DNA of 35,850 nt from a virus: positions 1-35,850 of the IMG/VR virus record IMGVR_UViG_3300048823_000040. One strand, given 5' to 3'. The notes beneath the pieces were generated by a model. The model made no database searches. It had not been told where the DNA came from and saw nothing but the letters and a program-made list of their open reading frames with translations. Of this stretch, positions 387-25,143 are shown one piece after another. Position numbers and translations under genes: made by a program. Position 1 is the stretch's first letter; the number at the start of each line of letters is the position of its first letter.

Positions 387-1253
387 CTACCGGGCGATAT
401 GGGGAGCGCGGAATTGGTCGACGAAGGACTTCGCTTTTTCTCGGTTTTCATAGTTTCCATCCATTATTTTTTGCCGATTGGCGGCCTTGCAAACCCAGTC
501 GAACGAAGCCCTAAACCCATTCACTTCGCCCAGCAAATACGGCCCCGCTCGTATTTTGGCGAAGAAGGCTTGTGGTTCAGAGTCGTGGTCGCGGAGCCAT
601 TTCAGCGTCGCTAGCGCCTGACGCTCCCGCGTGCTGCCGGGATCGATCGAATCAATCTCTGGCAAGCGGTGGTCGGCCGCGATGTCATTCCACGCCTCGC
701 CGAAGGATTTCAGTTCAATGCGCCTCGCGTCTGCCTTGGCTTTCGCCCTGTCAATTTTCTCGGCGGGAAACAGGTCGGCGCCTTCCGCCGACGGGTCCGA
801 ACGAAGTGAGGACCTATCTTCTATGATATCTGGTTCTAGTTCTAGTTCTGTATCTGGTGTGTCAGCGTGACGTGACGACACCGTCACATCGTGGTCACTG
901 TTATGACCGTTATCCGTTTTCTTTCGGTCACGGTAACGCTTTTGACGTTCGGCAGAGGTGTCGGATTGAAACTGACGGTCCCCCCAATGCACCACAGTCC
1001 CCTCGTGAATGCGACCCAGATCCTCCAGAGCATCAACAATACCCCCAACGTCGCCTTCATCCGCTCTAAGAAAGTAGCTGGCCTCCCCCACATCAAAGTC
1101 GTATTTTCCATTGTCGTTTATCTCCGCGGCGCTCTCTAGGATTGCGCCCCATATCCAAATTACGCGCTCGATTGTTTGCTTTGACCGAATGGCAACGCGG
1201 ACGAGTTTTTCGTCGCGCGAAAGACCCGCGTAATGGCGAAACCAACGGCTCAT
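387..1253 (-). CDS. phage replication initiation protein (winged-helix N-terminus, helicase-loader-like)
   Basis: The 288-residue protein begins with a compact helical domain (residues 1-105, SRWFRHYAGLSRDEKL at its start) of the kind found at the N-terminus of phage replication initiators. A charged linker with RQKRYRDRKK follows, then an acidic low-complexity stretch. The C-terminal segment (about 185-275) has the pattern W-x-x-IAADHRLPEI ... ALATLKWL ... FRASFDWVCKAANRQKIMDGNY. This is typical of the C-terminal part of phage replisome organisers that recruit the host helicase. The ATG at 1253 overlaps the upstream stop as ATGA; a GTG at 1262 is possible. Function is inferred from pattern and context with DnaA-like and RusA genes. 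Confidence 0.75.
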   Translation of the reverse strand: MSRWFRHYAGLSRDEKLVRVAIRSKQTIERVIWIWGAILESAAEINDNGKYDFDVGEASYFLRADEGDVGGIVDALEDLGRIHEGTVVHWGDRQFQSDTSAERQKRYRDRKKTDNGHNSDHDVTVSSRHADTPDTELELEPDIIEDRSSLRSDPSAEGADLFPAEKIDRAKAKADARRIELKSFGEAWNDIAADHRLPEIDSIDPGSTRERQALATLKWLRDHDSEPQAFFAKIRAGPYLLGEVNGFRASFDWVCKAANRQKIMDGNYENREKAKSFVDQFRAPHIAR

Positions 1254-1735
1254 TGCTGCCACTCGTCAGGATGCCTTGCACCCTTTTCTAAATTGCAGGG
1301 CGCACAAGAAATAACGAGATTATCGACCGTATGTTCGCCCCCTCGTGACCACGGGAAAACATGGTCAAAATGGAATGGGCCGTCGCTATTTCCGCAATAC
1401 ACACATACTTCGCCATCCCGTTCCAAAACGGCCGATTTCACCGCTTCGGGAATAGCTGGTCGCGATCTTGATTCATAAGCCCCCAAGGCGCGTCTCGCCG
1501 GGATTTCTCCCCAGCGATCTTCATAAAACATTGACAAAATAATTTTGGAAACCGACGACCATTGTCGCCAAGAAAGCTTGGCAATACGAGCCATGTGGCG
1601 TTCGTCATCTGGCAAACGCCCGTCGCGCCAATACGCGACTAACAACGCAAAATAGGCCCCCACCTCGAGTGCAGACATGCCCAAAGTATCGGCTAAAAAA
1701 TAGGATGGATAAATCCGCATCTGATGGTCGTTCAT
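1250..1735 (-). CDS. DUF1376 (YdaU) domain fused to an HNH nuclease
   Basis: Residues 6-75 match DUF1376/YdaU: MRIYPSYFLADTLGMSALEV, then GAYFALLVAYWRDGRLPDDE and a Trp-rich end. This domain is usually the N-terminal part of phage replication proteins. Residues 90-161 are instead a full HNH nuclease: VLERDGEVCVYCG, FDHVFPWSRGGEHTVDNLV and CAPCNLEKG. Both zinc CxxC pairs, the catalytic His of FDH and the Asn of the HNH fold are present. I chose the ATG at 1735 because the frame upstream to 1870 has only a TTG and non-domain sequence. Neither start has a strong ribosome binding site. It overlaps the next gene by ATGA. The fusion may be a self-targeting replication-locus nuclease or the result of a homing HNH captured by a replication gene. 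Confidence 0.8.
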   Translation of the reverse strand: MNDHQMRIYPSYFLADTLGMSALEVGAYFALLVAYWRDGRLPDDERHMARIAKLSWRQWSSVSKIILSMFYEDRWGEIPARRALGAYESRSRPAIPEAVKSAVLERDGEVCVYCGNSDGPFHFDHVFPWSRGGEHTVDNLVISCAPCNLEKGARHPDEWQQ

Positions 1736-1953
1736 GCGGATACGGCCGTCTTGCCCGCGACAATAGATTGTGCTAAATGAGATACTTCCATTGGGCGCTG
1801 CAATCGCTCTTGGATACGGCCGGGTCGAAGGCGTGCAACCGCCTCCCCGGCCAAACTTTTGCCAACTCAAAGACGCTACGCCTGCTTCGCGCGACCGTCA
1901 ACCGCTACAGTTAGCTGTTAGTCGGCAGTAATAGGCTAGCGATAGGGACTTCC
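1736..1953 (-). promoter_or_regulatory. 218-base gap with a possible leftward promoter
   Basis: No convincing gene is present. On the minus strand there is TTGACG (1896-1901), a 17-base spacer, then TAGCGT (1873-1878), a fair sigma70-type match. Transcription from it would leave a leader of about 130 bases before the DUF1376-HNH gene. A short palindrome, ACAG-TTAG-CTGT, lies at 1907-1918 just upstream of the -35 box and could be a binding site. The promoter is a prediction only. Confidence 0.35.
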
Positions 1954-2601
1954 TCAATCTCGCGCTTTAGCGCGCGCTATGCGGGCCACATGAGCCGCGC
2001 AACCGTGACGAATCGTCGTGTGGTCCTCTCTGTTCATGACCTTGGCGACGTCCACAAAACTCAATAGAAGCTCGCGCCGGATACGGTACATCGCCTCTTG
2101 ACGGGCCACCGAGGTTTCATTCGCGCGCGAGTCCGACAGCAAATCAGCGAATGTGAGACCAAAAGCTGAGGCCGTCTCGCGCACGATATCACGCGCCTGC
2201 GAACGAACACTGGCGCGGTAGGCATGGCTGCGATAGCGAGGTGGATCGATTGGCGCCCGTTCTCGGCTTGGAGCCGCAGCGATGATTCGGGCCAGAACGT
2301 CATTGCGATAATTCCTGAGTGTTTTTCCATTGCGGCGACCGCCTGAGGGCTTCCCCCATGCTGGAATCCGCGCAGTATCGGATAAAATCCTGCTCGGACC
2401 GTCGCTTTCCACTGTAGGCGCGACGACTGGCCTGGTGTGGGTTGCAATCAGCTTCGGAACCGCCTCTAGCCTTGCCCGCGCGGCTCGCCAGATAGCATCT
2501 TGGCGTCTGGCCTCAGGACATGGGTTGCGAGCGGGAAACGCGCCAGCGAGGCAAATAGGGGCCATCGATGGGATGAACTCGTCAACTCTAACTTCACGCA
2601 C
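1954..2601 (-). CDS. DnaA domain IV-like DNA-binding protein (no ATPase domain)
   Basis: The last ~85 residues resemble the DnaA C-terminal double-strand DNA-binding domain. They contain FGLTFADLLSDSR, then ARQEAMYRIRRELLLSFVDVA and the signature REDHTTIRHGC (DnaA consensus is GxRDHTTVLHA). The AAA+ ATPase of real DnaA (about 450 residues) is absent; the N-terminal ~125 residues are Arg/Pro-rich and unrecognised. The GTG start at 2601 is supported by GGAGGGC eight or nine bases upstream and overlaps the RusA stop by eight bases. It probably recognises DnaA-box-like sites at the phage origin or competes with host DnaA. That role is inferred. Confidence 0.8.
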   Translation of the reverse strand: MREVRVDEFIPSMAPICLAGAFPARNPCPEARRQDAIWRAARARLEAVPKLIATHTRPVVAPTVESDGPSRILSDTARIPAWGKPSGGRRNGKTLRNYRNDVLARIIAAAPSRERAPIDPPRYRSHAYRASVRSQARDIVRETASAFGLTFADLLSDSRANETSVARQEAMYRIRRELLLSFVDVAKVMNREDHTTIRHGCAAHVARIARAKARD

Positions 2602-3587: not shown

Positions 3588-3738
3588 GTTGACAACCTAA
3601 AGGCCGTTTCCCGTCCTGTCAATATTTTTCTTCGGCCGCGCAAGATTGTTGTTGACGCGAACATCCATCGGCGTATTCTATCCCTCGGTAGCCAATCCTA
3701 ACTGCGCGCCTCGGCCAGCCAGGGGCAGGAACAACGCG
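3588..3738. promoter_or_regulatory. divergent early promoter/operator region
   Basis: Leftward promoter on the minus strand: TTGACA (3617-3622), 17-base spacer, TAGGTT (3594-3599), with the start expected at about the A of the ATG at 3587. Rightward promoter: TTGACG (3652-3657), 16-base spacer, TATTCT (3674-3679), leaving a leader of about 55 bases before the DUF7666 gene. A palindrome GTTG-A-CAAC (3588-3596) overlaps the leftward -10 and start. The same half-site GTTGAC recurs at 3651-3656 over the rightward -35. These are good candidate operators for the adjacent HTH protein, so one protein could control both directions. Confidence 0.7.
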
Positions 3739-4761
3739 ATGGTCAACCACCCGAAGTGCAAGAAGAAAGTCGTCGAAACAGCAACCGAGGCCGCGCCAGC
3801 CGCGCCCGCGCTCCCCGTCATCACGTCGATCAAGGGCTTCGGCTCGGACCTGTCCTGCCGCGGCTTCAAATTTGAGTTTGGCAAGACATATGAGGTCCCC
3901 GGCAAGATCACGGCCTGCTCGAACGGATTTCACGCCTATCCGACCGACGAGCATCCGCTGTCCGTGTTCGAGTTCTATCCGCCGGCCGGCAATCGTTTTG
4001 CCGAAGTAACACAATCTGGCGCGACCGATCGCGAAGGAATAAAACTCGCCAGCGCTTCGATCACGATCGGCGTTGAACTGTCCATCGGCGACCTCGTGGC
4101 GCGGGCGGTCAAGTGGGTTTTCGATCGCGCGAACTGGAAAGACGGGCCGGTCGCGACGGGAACCAATGAAGGCGTGACGGCGAGCGGCAACAGCGGCGCG
4201 GCCACGGCGAGCGGCGACAGAGGCGCGGCCACGGCGAGCGGCGACAGCGGCGCGGCCACGGCGAGCGGCGACAGCGGCGCGGCCACGGCGAGCGGCGACA
4301 GAGGCGCGGCCACGGCGAGCGGCTACAGCGGCGCGGCCACGGCGAGCGGCTACAGAGGCGCGGCCACGGCGAGCGGCGACAGAGGCGCGGCCACGGCGAG
4401 CGGCGACAGCGGCGCGGCCACGGCGAGCGGCTACAGCGGCGCGGCCATGGCGAGCGGCGACAGAGGCGCGGCCACGGCGAGCGGCTTCAGCGGCGCGGCA
4501 ATGGCGAGCGGCAACAGCGGCGCGGCCACGGCGAGCGGCGACAGCGGCGCGGCCACGGCGAGCGGCGACAGAGGCGCGGCCACGGCGACAGGTTACGCCG
4601 GTCGCGTCAAGGGCGCCAAAGGCTGTGCTCTGTTCGCGGTCGAGCGCGACGAGAAATGGAACATCGTCAGCGTTGCCTGCGGCATCGTTGGGCGCGATGG
4701 GATCAAGTCAGACACTTGGTACAGCGCCAAGGACGAAAAACTTGTTGAGGTAACACCATGA
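3739..4761 (+). CDS. DUF7666 protein with long nonapeptide repeat array
   Basis: The 340-residue protein has a DUF7666 core (about 25-140). Its landmarks are [51 protein letters not shown] and a helical segment ending [11 protein letters not shown]. Residues 147-281 are 15 copies of a nine-residue unit, TASG(D/Y/N/F)(S/R)GAA. A capped end ([33 protein letters not shown]) follows. The regular small-residue periodicity suggests a narrow beta-solenoid. Start at 3739 follows GGGGCAGGA; a longer frame from 3646 would overlap the promoter. It is the first gene of the rightward operon and overlaps the ERF gene by ATGA. The function of the family is unknown to me. Confidence 0.85.
4177..4602 (+). repeat. 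27-bp coding minisatellite (15 full units plus one degenerate)
   Basis: Fifteen tandem 27-base units run from 4177 to 4581, with a degenerate sixteenth ending near 4602. Almost all variation falls in the aromatic/acidic codon (GAC, TAC, AAC or TTC), the next codon (AGC or AGA) and one ACG/ATG change at the start of two units. The rest is nearly invariant even at synonymous positions. This points to recent expansion or gene conversion rather than slow divergence. It is coding and has no spacers. Confidence 0.95.
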
Positions 4762-23185: not shown

Positions 23186-23719
23186 TCAGATCACCGTCCA
23201 CTTAGAAACGCCATCGGTCATCAGGCGGAGAGAACCGTAAGCCGTCGTCAGGACTTGTGTCGTGGAACCGCTGATTTTGTCGGTCCCGCTTGCCGTCGCT
23301 GTGATGGTATTTGTTGCCGAACAAGAGCCGCTTTCATCGACGATCAAGACTTGCGATCCGACGGCATAATTTCCGGCTTGGGGAAGTGAGACCGTCCGCG
23401 CGGCGGTGATGGCCGTGTAAGCGATCACTCCCGCGGATACCGCGGCGGTGTAGTTCGCGTCGTTGACCGCAACACGCTGGCCGGACAGGACATAGGTGAT
23501 AAACTGCGGCAGGGTGACGAGGCTGTACGTCCCCGCGACCGTGTCAAAGACGGCCCATTCGTGCGTCGCAAGAAGCGACGCTGCGGTGGCGAGGGCGGGG
23601 TAATTTAACCCAATACTCCATATCCCATTGGCCTTCGCAACCGCGATGCCTGGACCAGCAGAGACGCGAGAGGGGAAGGGTGACCTTGCATTAACGCGGA
23701 TCGATGCGGGCAATGTCAT
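23186..23719 (-). CDS. tail-associated structural protein
   Basis: 177 residues from an ATG behind GGGAGA. It starts MTLPASIRVNARSPFPSRVS with GPGIAVAKANGIWSIGLNYP, then beta-rich repeats (ITAARTVSLPQAGNYAVGSQ, VLIVDESGSCSATNTITATA). This resembles phage base or fibre modules with a C-terminal trimerising beta domain. It lies between the ATT-start gene and the tailspike. A fibre-associated role is inferred. Confidence 0.75.
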   Translation of the reverse strand: MTLPASIRVNARSPFPSRVSAGPGIAVAKANGIWSIGLNYPALATAASLLATHEWAVFDTVAGTYSLVTLPQFITYVLSGQRVAVNDANYTAAVSAGVIAYTAITAARTVSLPQAGNYAVGSQVLIVDESGSCSATNTITATASGTDKISGSTTQVLTTAYGSLRLMTDGVSKWTVI

Positions 23720-24168
23720 TAGGTATTTCTCCCGCCCATGAAGACAGGAAGCCTGCCGATCAGCAATTGCCGCCCGTCGTCGTTGGCTGTGTCCTCGATG
23801 GTCAAGTACACGTCGTATGAACTGCGGCCATGCAGCGTCTTCATGATCGACTTCGGAATTTGGATGTCGATCACGCCGGTATCGACGATCGCGATGTACG
23901 ATCCCGCCGTGATTGGTGCCGCGCCCTGCGCGAGGTTGGTGTAGATGACCGCGTCGCATCCCGCATCGTCATAGTATGGCGACGGCCCCGAATATCCGGG
24001 GTCACCATGATGCGAGCGGCGGATTTCGAGCGCGATGGCGTAGGCCGCGTTGCCATTGTTATCGAGAAGGCTAATCAGATCGCCTGTCTCGTCGTCGGAA
24101 ACCTGAACGGATTGCGCCCACGCCTCGCGATTCGTAATCTGGGGAAAGAGGACGGGATTCTGGTAAAT
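23719..24168 (-). CDS. tail protein apparently starting at ATT
   Basis: A continuous 149-residue frame fills what would otherwise be a 460-base gap. From the presumed start it reads MYQNPVLFPQITNREAWAQS, then DETGDLISLLDNNGNAAYAI, SYIAIVDTGVIDIQIPKSIM and LLIGRLPVFMGGRNT before TAA. This TAA overlaps the next ATG as TAATG. There is no ATG, GTG or TTG upstream of about residue 100, but an ATT at 24166-24168 follows GGGAGGCTAAC, a strong ribosome binding site. The same frame begins right after the collar gene's TGA. Beta-rich, with a BppU-like N-terminal look; likely a tail or baseplate component. Confidence 0.7.
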   Translation of the reverse strand: MYQNPVLFPQITNREAWAQSVQVSDDETGDLISLLDNNGNAAYAIALEIRRSHHGDPGYSGPSPYYDDAGCDAVIYTNLAQGAAPITAGSYIAIVDTGVIDIQIPKSIMKTLHGRSSYDVYLTIEDTANDDGRQLLIGRLPVFMGGRNT

Positions 24169-24180
24169 GTTAGCCTCCCA

Positions 24181-25143
24181 TCACATTTTGACGTAGAACG
24201 TGCCGAGCACGAACGGTTGGCAATTGTTGTGCGCCCCGCCGCCGCCTGTGTTCGCGTTTGCGACCGAAATGCTGGTCACGGCCGATGGCATGGCTTGTGC
24301 CGCCTGAGCGCCGCCGCCTGCAGGCACGGTGCCGGAGCCATTCATGAAATACGTTCCGGCATGCGTGTGGCCGGGGTCGGTCACGGTCGCTGTGTGCGTG
24401 TGCGCGGGCATTTCATTGGTGGTCAGGACGTGGTTGGCCTCGCCGCCCCACGCCGCTGGGGTTGTCGGACCATCCCCGCCGCCGCTCGTGACATTGGACG
24501 CAAGCAGGATGCCTGCCGCAGACGCCCCCATGTCGTCGAGACCGAGCGGCGCGCGCGCACGCCAGTCCGGCAACGCGATTGTCTCACCGGCGTTGAAATC
24601 TGCCAAGGCCGACGCGCCGCGTCCGCCTGAGACTGCGCAATGCGCGTTGGTAAAATTTGACCAGAGATAAATGAAGAGGCTCTGCGTATCGGCGTTGGCG
24701 CGCTGCGTCGCCCCGGAGGTCGAATTGCCGATGGTCTGGCCATTCATCTTCAGCCAGCCGGACAGCGTCTCCGAGGTAGCGCGGAACTTGATGTCGCCGG
24801 TTGATAGGACCGTCGTGGGATCGACGGATGACCCGCCCCCGCCTCCGCCGCCGCCCGATGACGGGCCGACCACCTGCATTACCGGGTAATCGAATATAAC
24901 GACACCCGTCGCATCGGTCAGGCGAACGTGAACCTGTCCGTCCGCTAGATAGAACATGGGAATGCGGCCGTACTGATCCGCCGCCATCGGCCACGGCTGC
25001 GTGATCGACAGGCCGAAGTCCTGGAATGCGTCCTGCGGCGTCGCAACCGTGCTGACGGCGTAGATGTACAGCAGCGCGCCCGCCATGGGCTGGCCGTTGA
25101 GGTCGACGCATTGCGTCAGGGCGACGGGGATTGTGCCGGCCAT
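24181..25143 (-). CDS. tail fibre with tail collar domain
   Basis: 320 residues. The N-terminal ~95 residues (VALTQCVDLNGQPMAGALLY, WPMAADQYGRIPMFYLADGQ) are a virion-attachment domain of the type found in podovirus fibres. A Gly-rich linker (SSGGGGGGGGSS) follows, then a phage tail collar domain: DIKFRATSETLSGWLKMNGQ, ALPDWRARAPLGLDDMGAS and the histidine-rich NEMPAHTHTATVTDPGHTHA. The collar fold often binds metal at its HxH pairs. ATG follows the preceding TAA directly. Confidence 0.85.
   Translation of the reverse strand: MAGTIPVALTQCVDLNGQPMAGALLYIYAVSTVATPQDAFQDFGLSITQPWPMAADQYGRIPMFYLADGQVHVRLTDATGVVIFDYPVMQVVGPSSGGGGGGGGSSVDPTTVLSTGDIKFRATSETLSGWLKMNGQTIGNSTSGATQRANADTQSLFIYLWSNFTNAHCAVSGGRGASALADFNAGETIALPDWRARAPLGLDDMGASAAGILLASNVTSGGGDGPTTPAAWGGEANHVLTTNEMPAHTHTATVTDPGHTHAGTYFMNGSGTVPAGGGAQAAQAMPSAVTSISVANANTGGGGAHNNCQPFVLGTFYVKM

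Follow-up and report, generated by a model that had tools for sequence, protein, structure and literature searches.

In the window, by which we mean the whole 35,850-nucleotide stretch of viral DNA analysed here, an open frame of 149 residues lies between a tail-collar/tail fibre gene and a gene related to baseplate proteins (Table 1). A preliminary description of this DNA had reported such a frame between collar and tail genes, and the matches of both neighbours to tail and baseplate families bear this out. Its coordinates hold, and the strand, which it omitted, is the minus strand (24168 to 23719). From stop to stop, the frame covers 24180..23719 and contains 153 codons, 149 of which are counted from an ATT located 12 nt behind the TGA of the collar gene and in the same frame as that gene. 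The first conventional starts in this frame are a GTG at codon 99 and an ATG at codon 109; the earlier statement that ATG, GTG, and TTG are missing from the first two thirds of the frame was thus correct, as were those that the frame opens close behind the upstream stop, that the ATT is well placed behind GGGAGG, and that the gene's stop overlaps the next ATG (TAATG; the latter ATG at 23719-23717). With the usual starts only, the ORF list shows no ORF of at least 60 aa in this frame. The plus-strand frame at 23719-24168 contains an internal stop.

Table 1. Positions of the ATT gene, its start region, and its neighbours in the window
Feature	Position	Strand	Remarks
Upstream tail-collar/tail fibre gene, 320 aa	24181..25143	-	Ends with TGA 24183-24181; phrog_8763 tail protein, E 7.6e-53; Pam5 tail fibre, 36%
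Out-of-frame ATG overlapping the upstream stop (TGATG)	24179..24181	-	Not taken as the putative start
Shine-Dalgarno (SD) sequence GGGAGG	24174..24179	-	5-nt spacer to ATT; same letters in L001 and L005
Putative start codon ATT	24166..24168	-	Alignment: ATT in L001 and L005; ATG in L012, L020, L021, and Pam5
Putative ATT-initiated tail gene, 149 aa	23719..24168	-	Includes TAA 23721-23719; purifying selection in comparison with L001 and L005; six homologues
Downstream gene, 177 aa	23186..23719	-	ATG overlaps the TAA of the ATT gene; phrog_20556 baseplate, E 8.9e-6; start of Pam5 gp18 'tail spike', 39%

The order of the genes corresponds to gp16-gp17-gp18 of the phage Pam5, in which the counterpart of the ATT gene likewise lies between collar/fibre and spike genes. 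The product of the ATT gene matched no Pfam family at E 1, and a search of its sequence against solved structures yielded nothing meaningful. A PHROG family of unknown function, phrog_1084, was matched by six of the seven family members at E values up to 0.1 (best, 1.4e-7; product of the window, 0.025). The predicted structure of the product consists mostly of beta strands, and with this model of modest confidence (pLDDT 64.8) the best BFVD match had an E value of 1.2e-3, the best matches being small phage proteins, among them a protein named BppU N-terminal-like (BppU-N) at rank 22 (E 0.041). No PDB entry matched the model below E 0.001. A probable role for the product is that of a small adaptor in the tail or of a receptor-binding protein.

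Elsewhere in the window, an early-region ORF (3646-4758, plus strand) combining DUF7666 with collagen-like repeats precedes an ERF-type annealing protein and a YqaJ exonuclease. In an ORF at 1253-1870 (minus strand), the N-terminal half is DUF1376/primosomal-like and the C-terminal half is HNH. Another ORF, at 1957-2601 (minus strand), has a C-terminal DNA-binding domain of the DnaA type (Bac_DnaA_C, E 4.7e-14) and no PHROG match.

Within 8.5 kb of the window, 48 stop-to-stop frames reach 90 aa or more, so a long open frame by itself is weak evidence for a gene at this G+C content. The motif GGAGG-N4-9-AT[TCA] occurred eight times on the two strands of the window, whereas 100 mononucleotide shuffles averaged 17.9 occurrences; as it is not enriched, the local combination of an SD sequence and ATT provides no evidence either. 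Because both features are commonplace in the window, the case for the ATT start rests on comparison with relatives.

Six relatives were found by searching viral contigs and phage records with the neighbouring genes, and all except Pam5 are metagenome assemblies. L001 and L005, whose products are 90% and 85% identical in amino acids, respectively, keep the frame, GGGAGG, and the ATT itself at its 12-nt distance from the stop. The homologues in L012 (65%), L020 (51%; the record behind L014), and L021 (48%) and gp17 of Pam5 (31%) all have ATG where the alignment places the ATT, and their N-termini are MYENPVLFP, MDLNPTLFP, MYGFPTYLP, and MFGGTLPP, respectively. The codon just before this ATG is GTG in L021 and ATT in L020, and in both it is the ATG that occupies the aligned codon. 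To the question raised in the preliminary description, whether the start is ATG in related phages, the answer is that it is ATG in all four outside the close clade and ATT in both close relatives; none of them is best read with a conventional start at another place. When the ATT ORF was compared by tblastn with 50,697 phage records, nothing matched at E 10, not even Pam5 gp17, which was therefore placed by synteny and a weak alignment; in the multiple alignment, this weak homologue has the conserved W17, G29-D30, G98, I137-G138, and L140-P141. The three ATT sequences form one clade with support of 100/99 when Pam5 is included and 99/97 when it is left out, and a single change from ATG to ATT is accordingly the simplest history. 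The genome contig collections that were scanned yielded no relative and thus gave no link to a prophage or host. In L005, a 168-aa ORF that looks HNH-endonuclease-like by eye (L005:4498-5004) separates the ATT gene from its downstream neighbour; it is absent from the window and L001.

The window differed from L001 by 57.5 synonymous and 19.5 non-synonymous changes (pS 0.508, pN 0.059) and from L005 by 55.3 and 30.7, respectively (pS 0.486, pN 0.093). Since pS is far above pN in both comparisons, the frame is coding. It is intact in all three ATT copies, with pN/pS of approximately 0.1 to 0.2. The antisense frame is not conserved, with one, zero, and five stops in the window, L001, and L005, respectively. 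Within codons 2-11, 5.0 synonymous and 2.0 non-synonymous differences were counted against L001 and 6.0 and 0.0 against L005, and these codons match L012 nearly residue for residue. Purifying selection on this segment indicates that translation begins upstream of codon 2. From the upstream stop to codon 2, the ATT is the sole start codon of translation table 11; the interval before it reads TGG GAG GCT followed by AAC, GAC, or GCC, none of which is such a codon. In the L005 copy, no in-frame ATG, GTG, or TTG appears before codon 100, and the L001 copy has a GTG at codon 23 (L001:4067-4069), within the conserved region. This GTG is a possible site for a truncated start call by gene callers. The ATG overlapping the upstream stop closes after three codons in the window (ATG GGA GGC TAA) and in L001 (ATG GGA GGC TGA); in L005, reading from it continues in the wrong phase. 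The ATT thus stands at the start position of the homologues, and neither at the conserved N-terminus nor ahead of it is there a usable conventional start; both features are expected of genes with an AUU start. The retention of the exact ATT in three genomes is weak evidence for a start: 55 of 117 codons with an invariant amino acid are identical in the window, L001, and L005, ATT is kept in all three at one of 13 other conserved Ile sites, and the codon-identity test of the ATT among these genomes was not significant.

SD strength was scored as the duplex with the 3′ end of 16S rRNA (10 bases). The leader of the ATT gene, at -10.2 kcal/mol, was the strongest among 13 late genes hand-picked from the ORF list, the 12 others of which start with ATG. 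The SD sequences of the ATT copies in L001 and L005 scored -10.7 and -10.2 kcal/mol, respectively, whereas those of the ATG orthologues in L012, L020, L021, and Pam5 were weaker, at -2.4, -0.6, -3.7, and -7.3 kcal/mol, respectively. A strong SD sequence at the ATT is in line with a report that poor start codons tend to be paired with strong SD sequences; that test was made with GUG and UUG, and its effect on SD conservation was not significant in alphaproteobacteria (PMC5622118). An unrelated viral gene in L007, L009, and L010 shares the leader, with ATGTGATGGGAGGCTTCC ahead of an ATG; written as ATGTGATGGGAGGCT (L007:7767-7786, L009:9653-9672 on the minus strand, and L010:3613-3632), the leader precedes TTCC and ATG. 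This shows only that starts can stand at that position. Folding of the RNA around the start gave no structural signal in the ATT genes (z 0.45, 0.00, and -0.77 in the window, L001, and L005, respectively); the z values of the ATG relatives L012 and L020 were -1.44 and -2.00. No tRNA of any kind, and hence no phage-encoded initiator tRNA, was found in the window.

If the TGA of the collar gene were read through, the frame would extend the collar protein at its C-terminus and would not require a separate start codon. The collar and ATT-type genes do share a frame, with only sense codons between them, in the window, L001, L005, L012, and Pam5. However, the next gene is out of frame with the collar gene in L020 (TAA, then 4 nt) and L021 (TGATG overlap), which makes a simple readthrough fusion impossible there, and the collar stop of L005 is TAA instead of TGA. 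A stop between the two genes is kept in all seven genomes, the outgroups supply ATG starts, and a strong SD sequence would be pointless under readthrough. We consider readthrough extremely improbable, and the fusion with the collar protein envisaged in the preliminary description does not hold because the arrangement is not conserved. Translation might otherwise restart at the ATG overlapping the upstream stop and then shift by +1 near GGC TAA/TGA C, as in prfB. The TRATG overlap is present in all three ATT genomes, the relative L021 starts at its TGATG overlap, and a stop followed by C occupies the would-be shift site in the window and L001. A prfB-like mechanism, however, requires the stop in all members, and L005 has GGC TGC C at this site, so that nothing there would pause the ribosome. 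Compared with prfB, slipping from GGC to GCT offers poor +1 re-pairing and the SD sequence is too near the stop for such a signal; the shift would, moreover, gain just three codons. A frameshift is therefore very improbable.

A later start, for example at Ile codon 11 or CTG codon 31, could draw on further near-cognate codons in the frame and on the GTG of L001, but it would leave unexplained the selection on codons 2-11 and their close agreement with L012; likewise, the intact frames and low pN/pS argue against a decaying gene. We judge these two possibilities together to be improbable. An error in sequencing or assembly that turned ATG into ATT has a practically negligible probability: all three ATT sequences do come from assemblies of uncultured viruses, but the same ATT recurs in three contigs with differences at roughly half their synonymous sites, which makes an error unlikely. 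As judged from these comparisons, the ATT start looks like a real inherited switch, not a misread sequence.

Taken as a whole, the data are very probably best explained by a real gene that is translated from AUU at 24168 and had an ATG-initiated ancestor. The comparison with relatives supports this reading; translation from AUU is what we infer from it. In this model, ribosomes ending the collar gene would halt at the UGA 12 nt ahead of the AUU, or fresh 30S subunits would bind there, and pairing of the strong GGGAGG with the 3′ end of 16S rRNA would set the initiator tRNA on the AUU. The product would have 149 residues with an N-terminal formyl-methionine. Its most likely role is that of a small adaptor or receptor-binding subunit with a beta-sandwich fold, situated between the collar/fibre protein on one side and the tail spike on the other. 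The ancestral AUG would have become AUU by one third-base change in the lineage that includes the window, L001, and L005; the strong SD sequence and the 12-nt spacer are features of this lineage. Changes from AUG to AUU were reported for one of 61,358 ancestral AUG starts (PMC5622118), and this rarity lowers the prior for the ATT start. In a survey of E. coli, AUU gave about 0.3% of the output obtained with AUG (PMC10666635), and IF3 is described as repressing codons such as AUU (PMC5472188), a property regarded as general (PMC5472188, PMC2268962); low and IF3-dependent output would therefore be expected. Output at about 0.3% of AUG is low for a virion part and counts against the AUU start. 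Low output dependent on host IF3 would, on the other hand, suit a tail part required in few copies per virion. Excess IF3 is also reported to inhibit re-initiation in E. coli when an SD sequence is absent (PMC2268962). The further proposal that AUU and a strengthened SD sequence co-evolved so as to set the dose of one tail component stably, with termination-reinitiation downstream of the collar gene giving a fixed low ratio that rises as host IF3 activity falls, is speculative, and we consider it rather unlikely; if true, it would place a viral structural gene under IF3 control.

A search of open-licence PMC literature, represented in part and mostly by titles and the beginnings of abstracts, did not reveal a phage structural gene with an AUU or ATT start, and no claim of absence is made from it; 'AUU' has no occurrences in PMC11497404, nor has 'non-canonical start codon' as a whole word in PMC13072308. 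As far as sequence can show, the ATT gene is an unusually well-documented AUU-initiated gene, AUU starts being already known from infC and Borrelia pncA. The switch from AUG to AUU is seen here in a viral structural gene: the outgroups have ATG, three diverged genomes retain the ATT, and the SD sequence is stronger on the ATT side. The family therefore provides a ready test of how poor start codons are compensated, and it suggests that gene finders limited to ATG, GTG, and TTG can miss a conserved phage gene or call it too short.

The closest parallel in start codon is E. coli infC, which encodes IF3, starts with AUU, and is autoregulated by IF3 (PMC5472188). The two genes are alike in the AUU start and the expected repression by IF3; infC, however, closes a feedback loop through its product, whereas the ATT gene is a viral structural gene for which no loop is known. 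The hint of infC-like autoregulation in the preliminary description found no support in the Pfam search, the tail synteny, or the predicted beta-strand structure: from the AUU codon follows sensitivity to host IF3 alone, not autoregulation. The pncA gene of Borrelia burgdorferi (bbe22) is reported to have an AUU start missed by annotation (PMC13398362) and thus shares with the ATT gene a rare start and a true N-terminus missed by databases; pncA belongs to cellular metabolism and was tested by genetic and structural work, whereas the case for the ATT gene is comparative. Streptomyces sigR has a GTC start that limits its output relative to its operon partner rsrA (PMC5472188). Both are operon genes with a poor start codon, but sigR uses GTC, encodes a regulator, and has a demonstrated dose role, which for the ATT gene is proposed. 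The Pseudanabaena phage Pam5 (ON014757), a short-tailed cyanophage (PMC9382816), has the same order of tail fibre, small protein annotated as receptor-binding, and tail spike; its gp17, with 111 aa and approximately 31% identity to the ATT gene product, starts at the aligned codon but with ATG.
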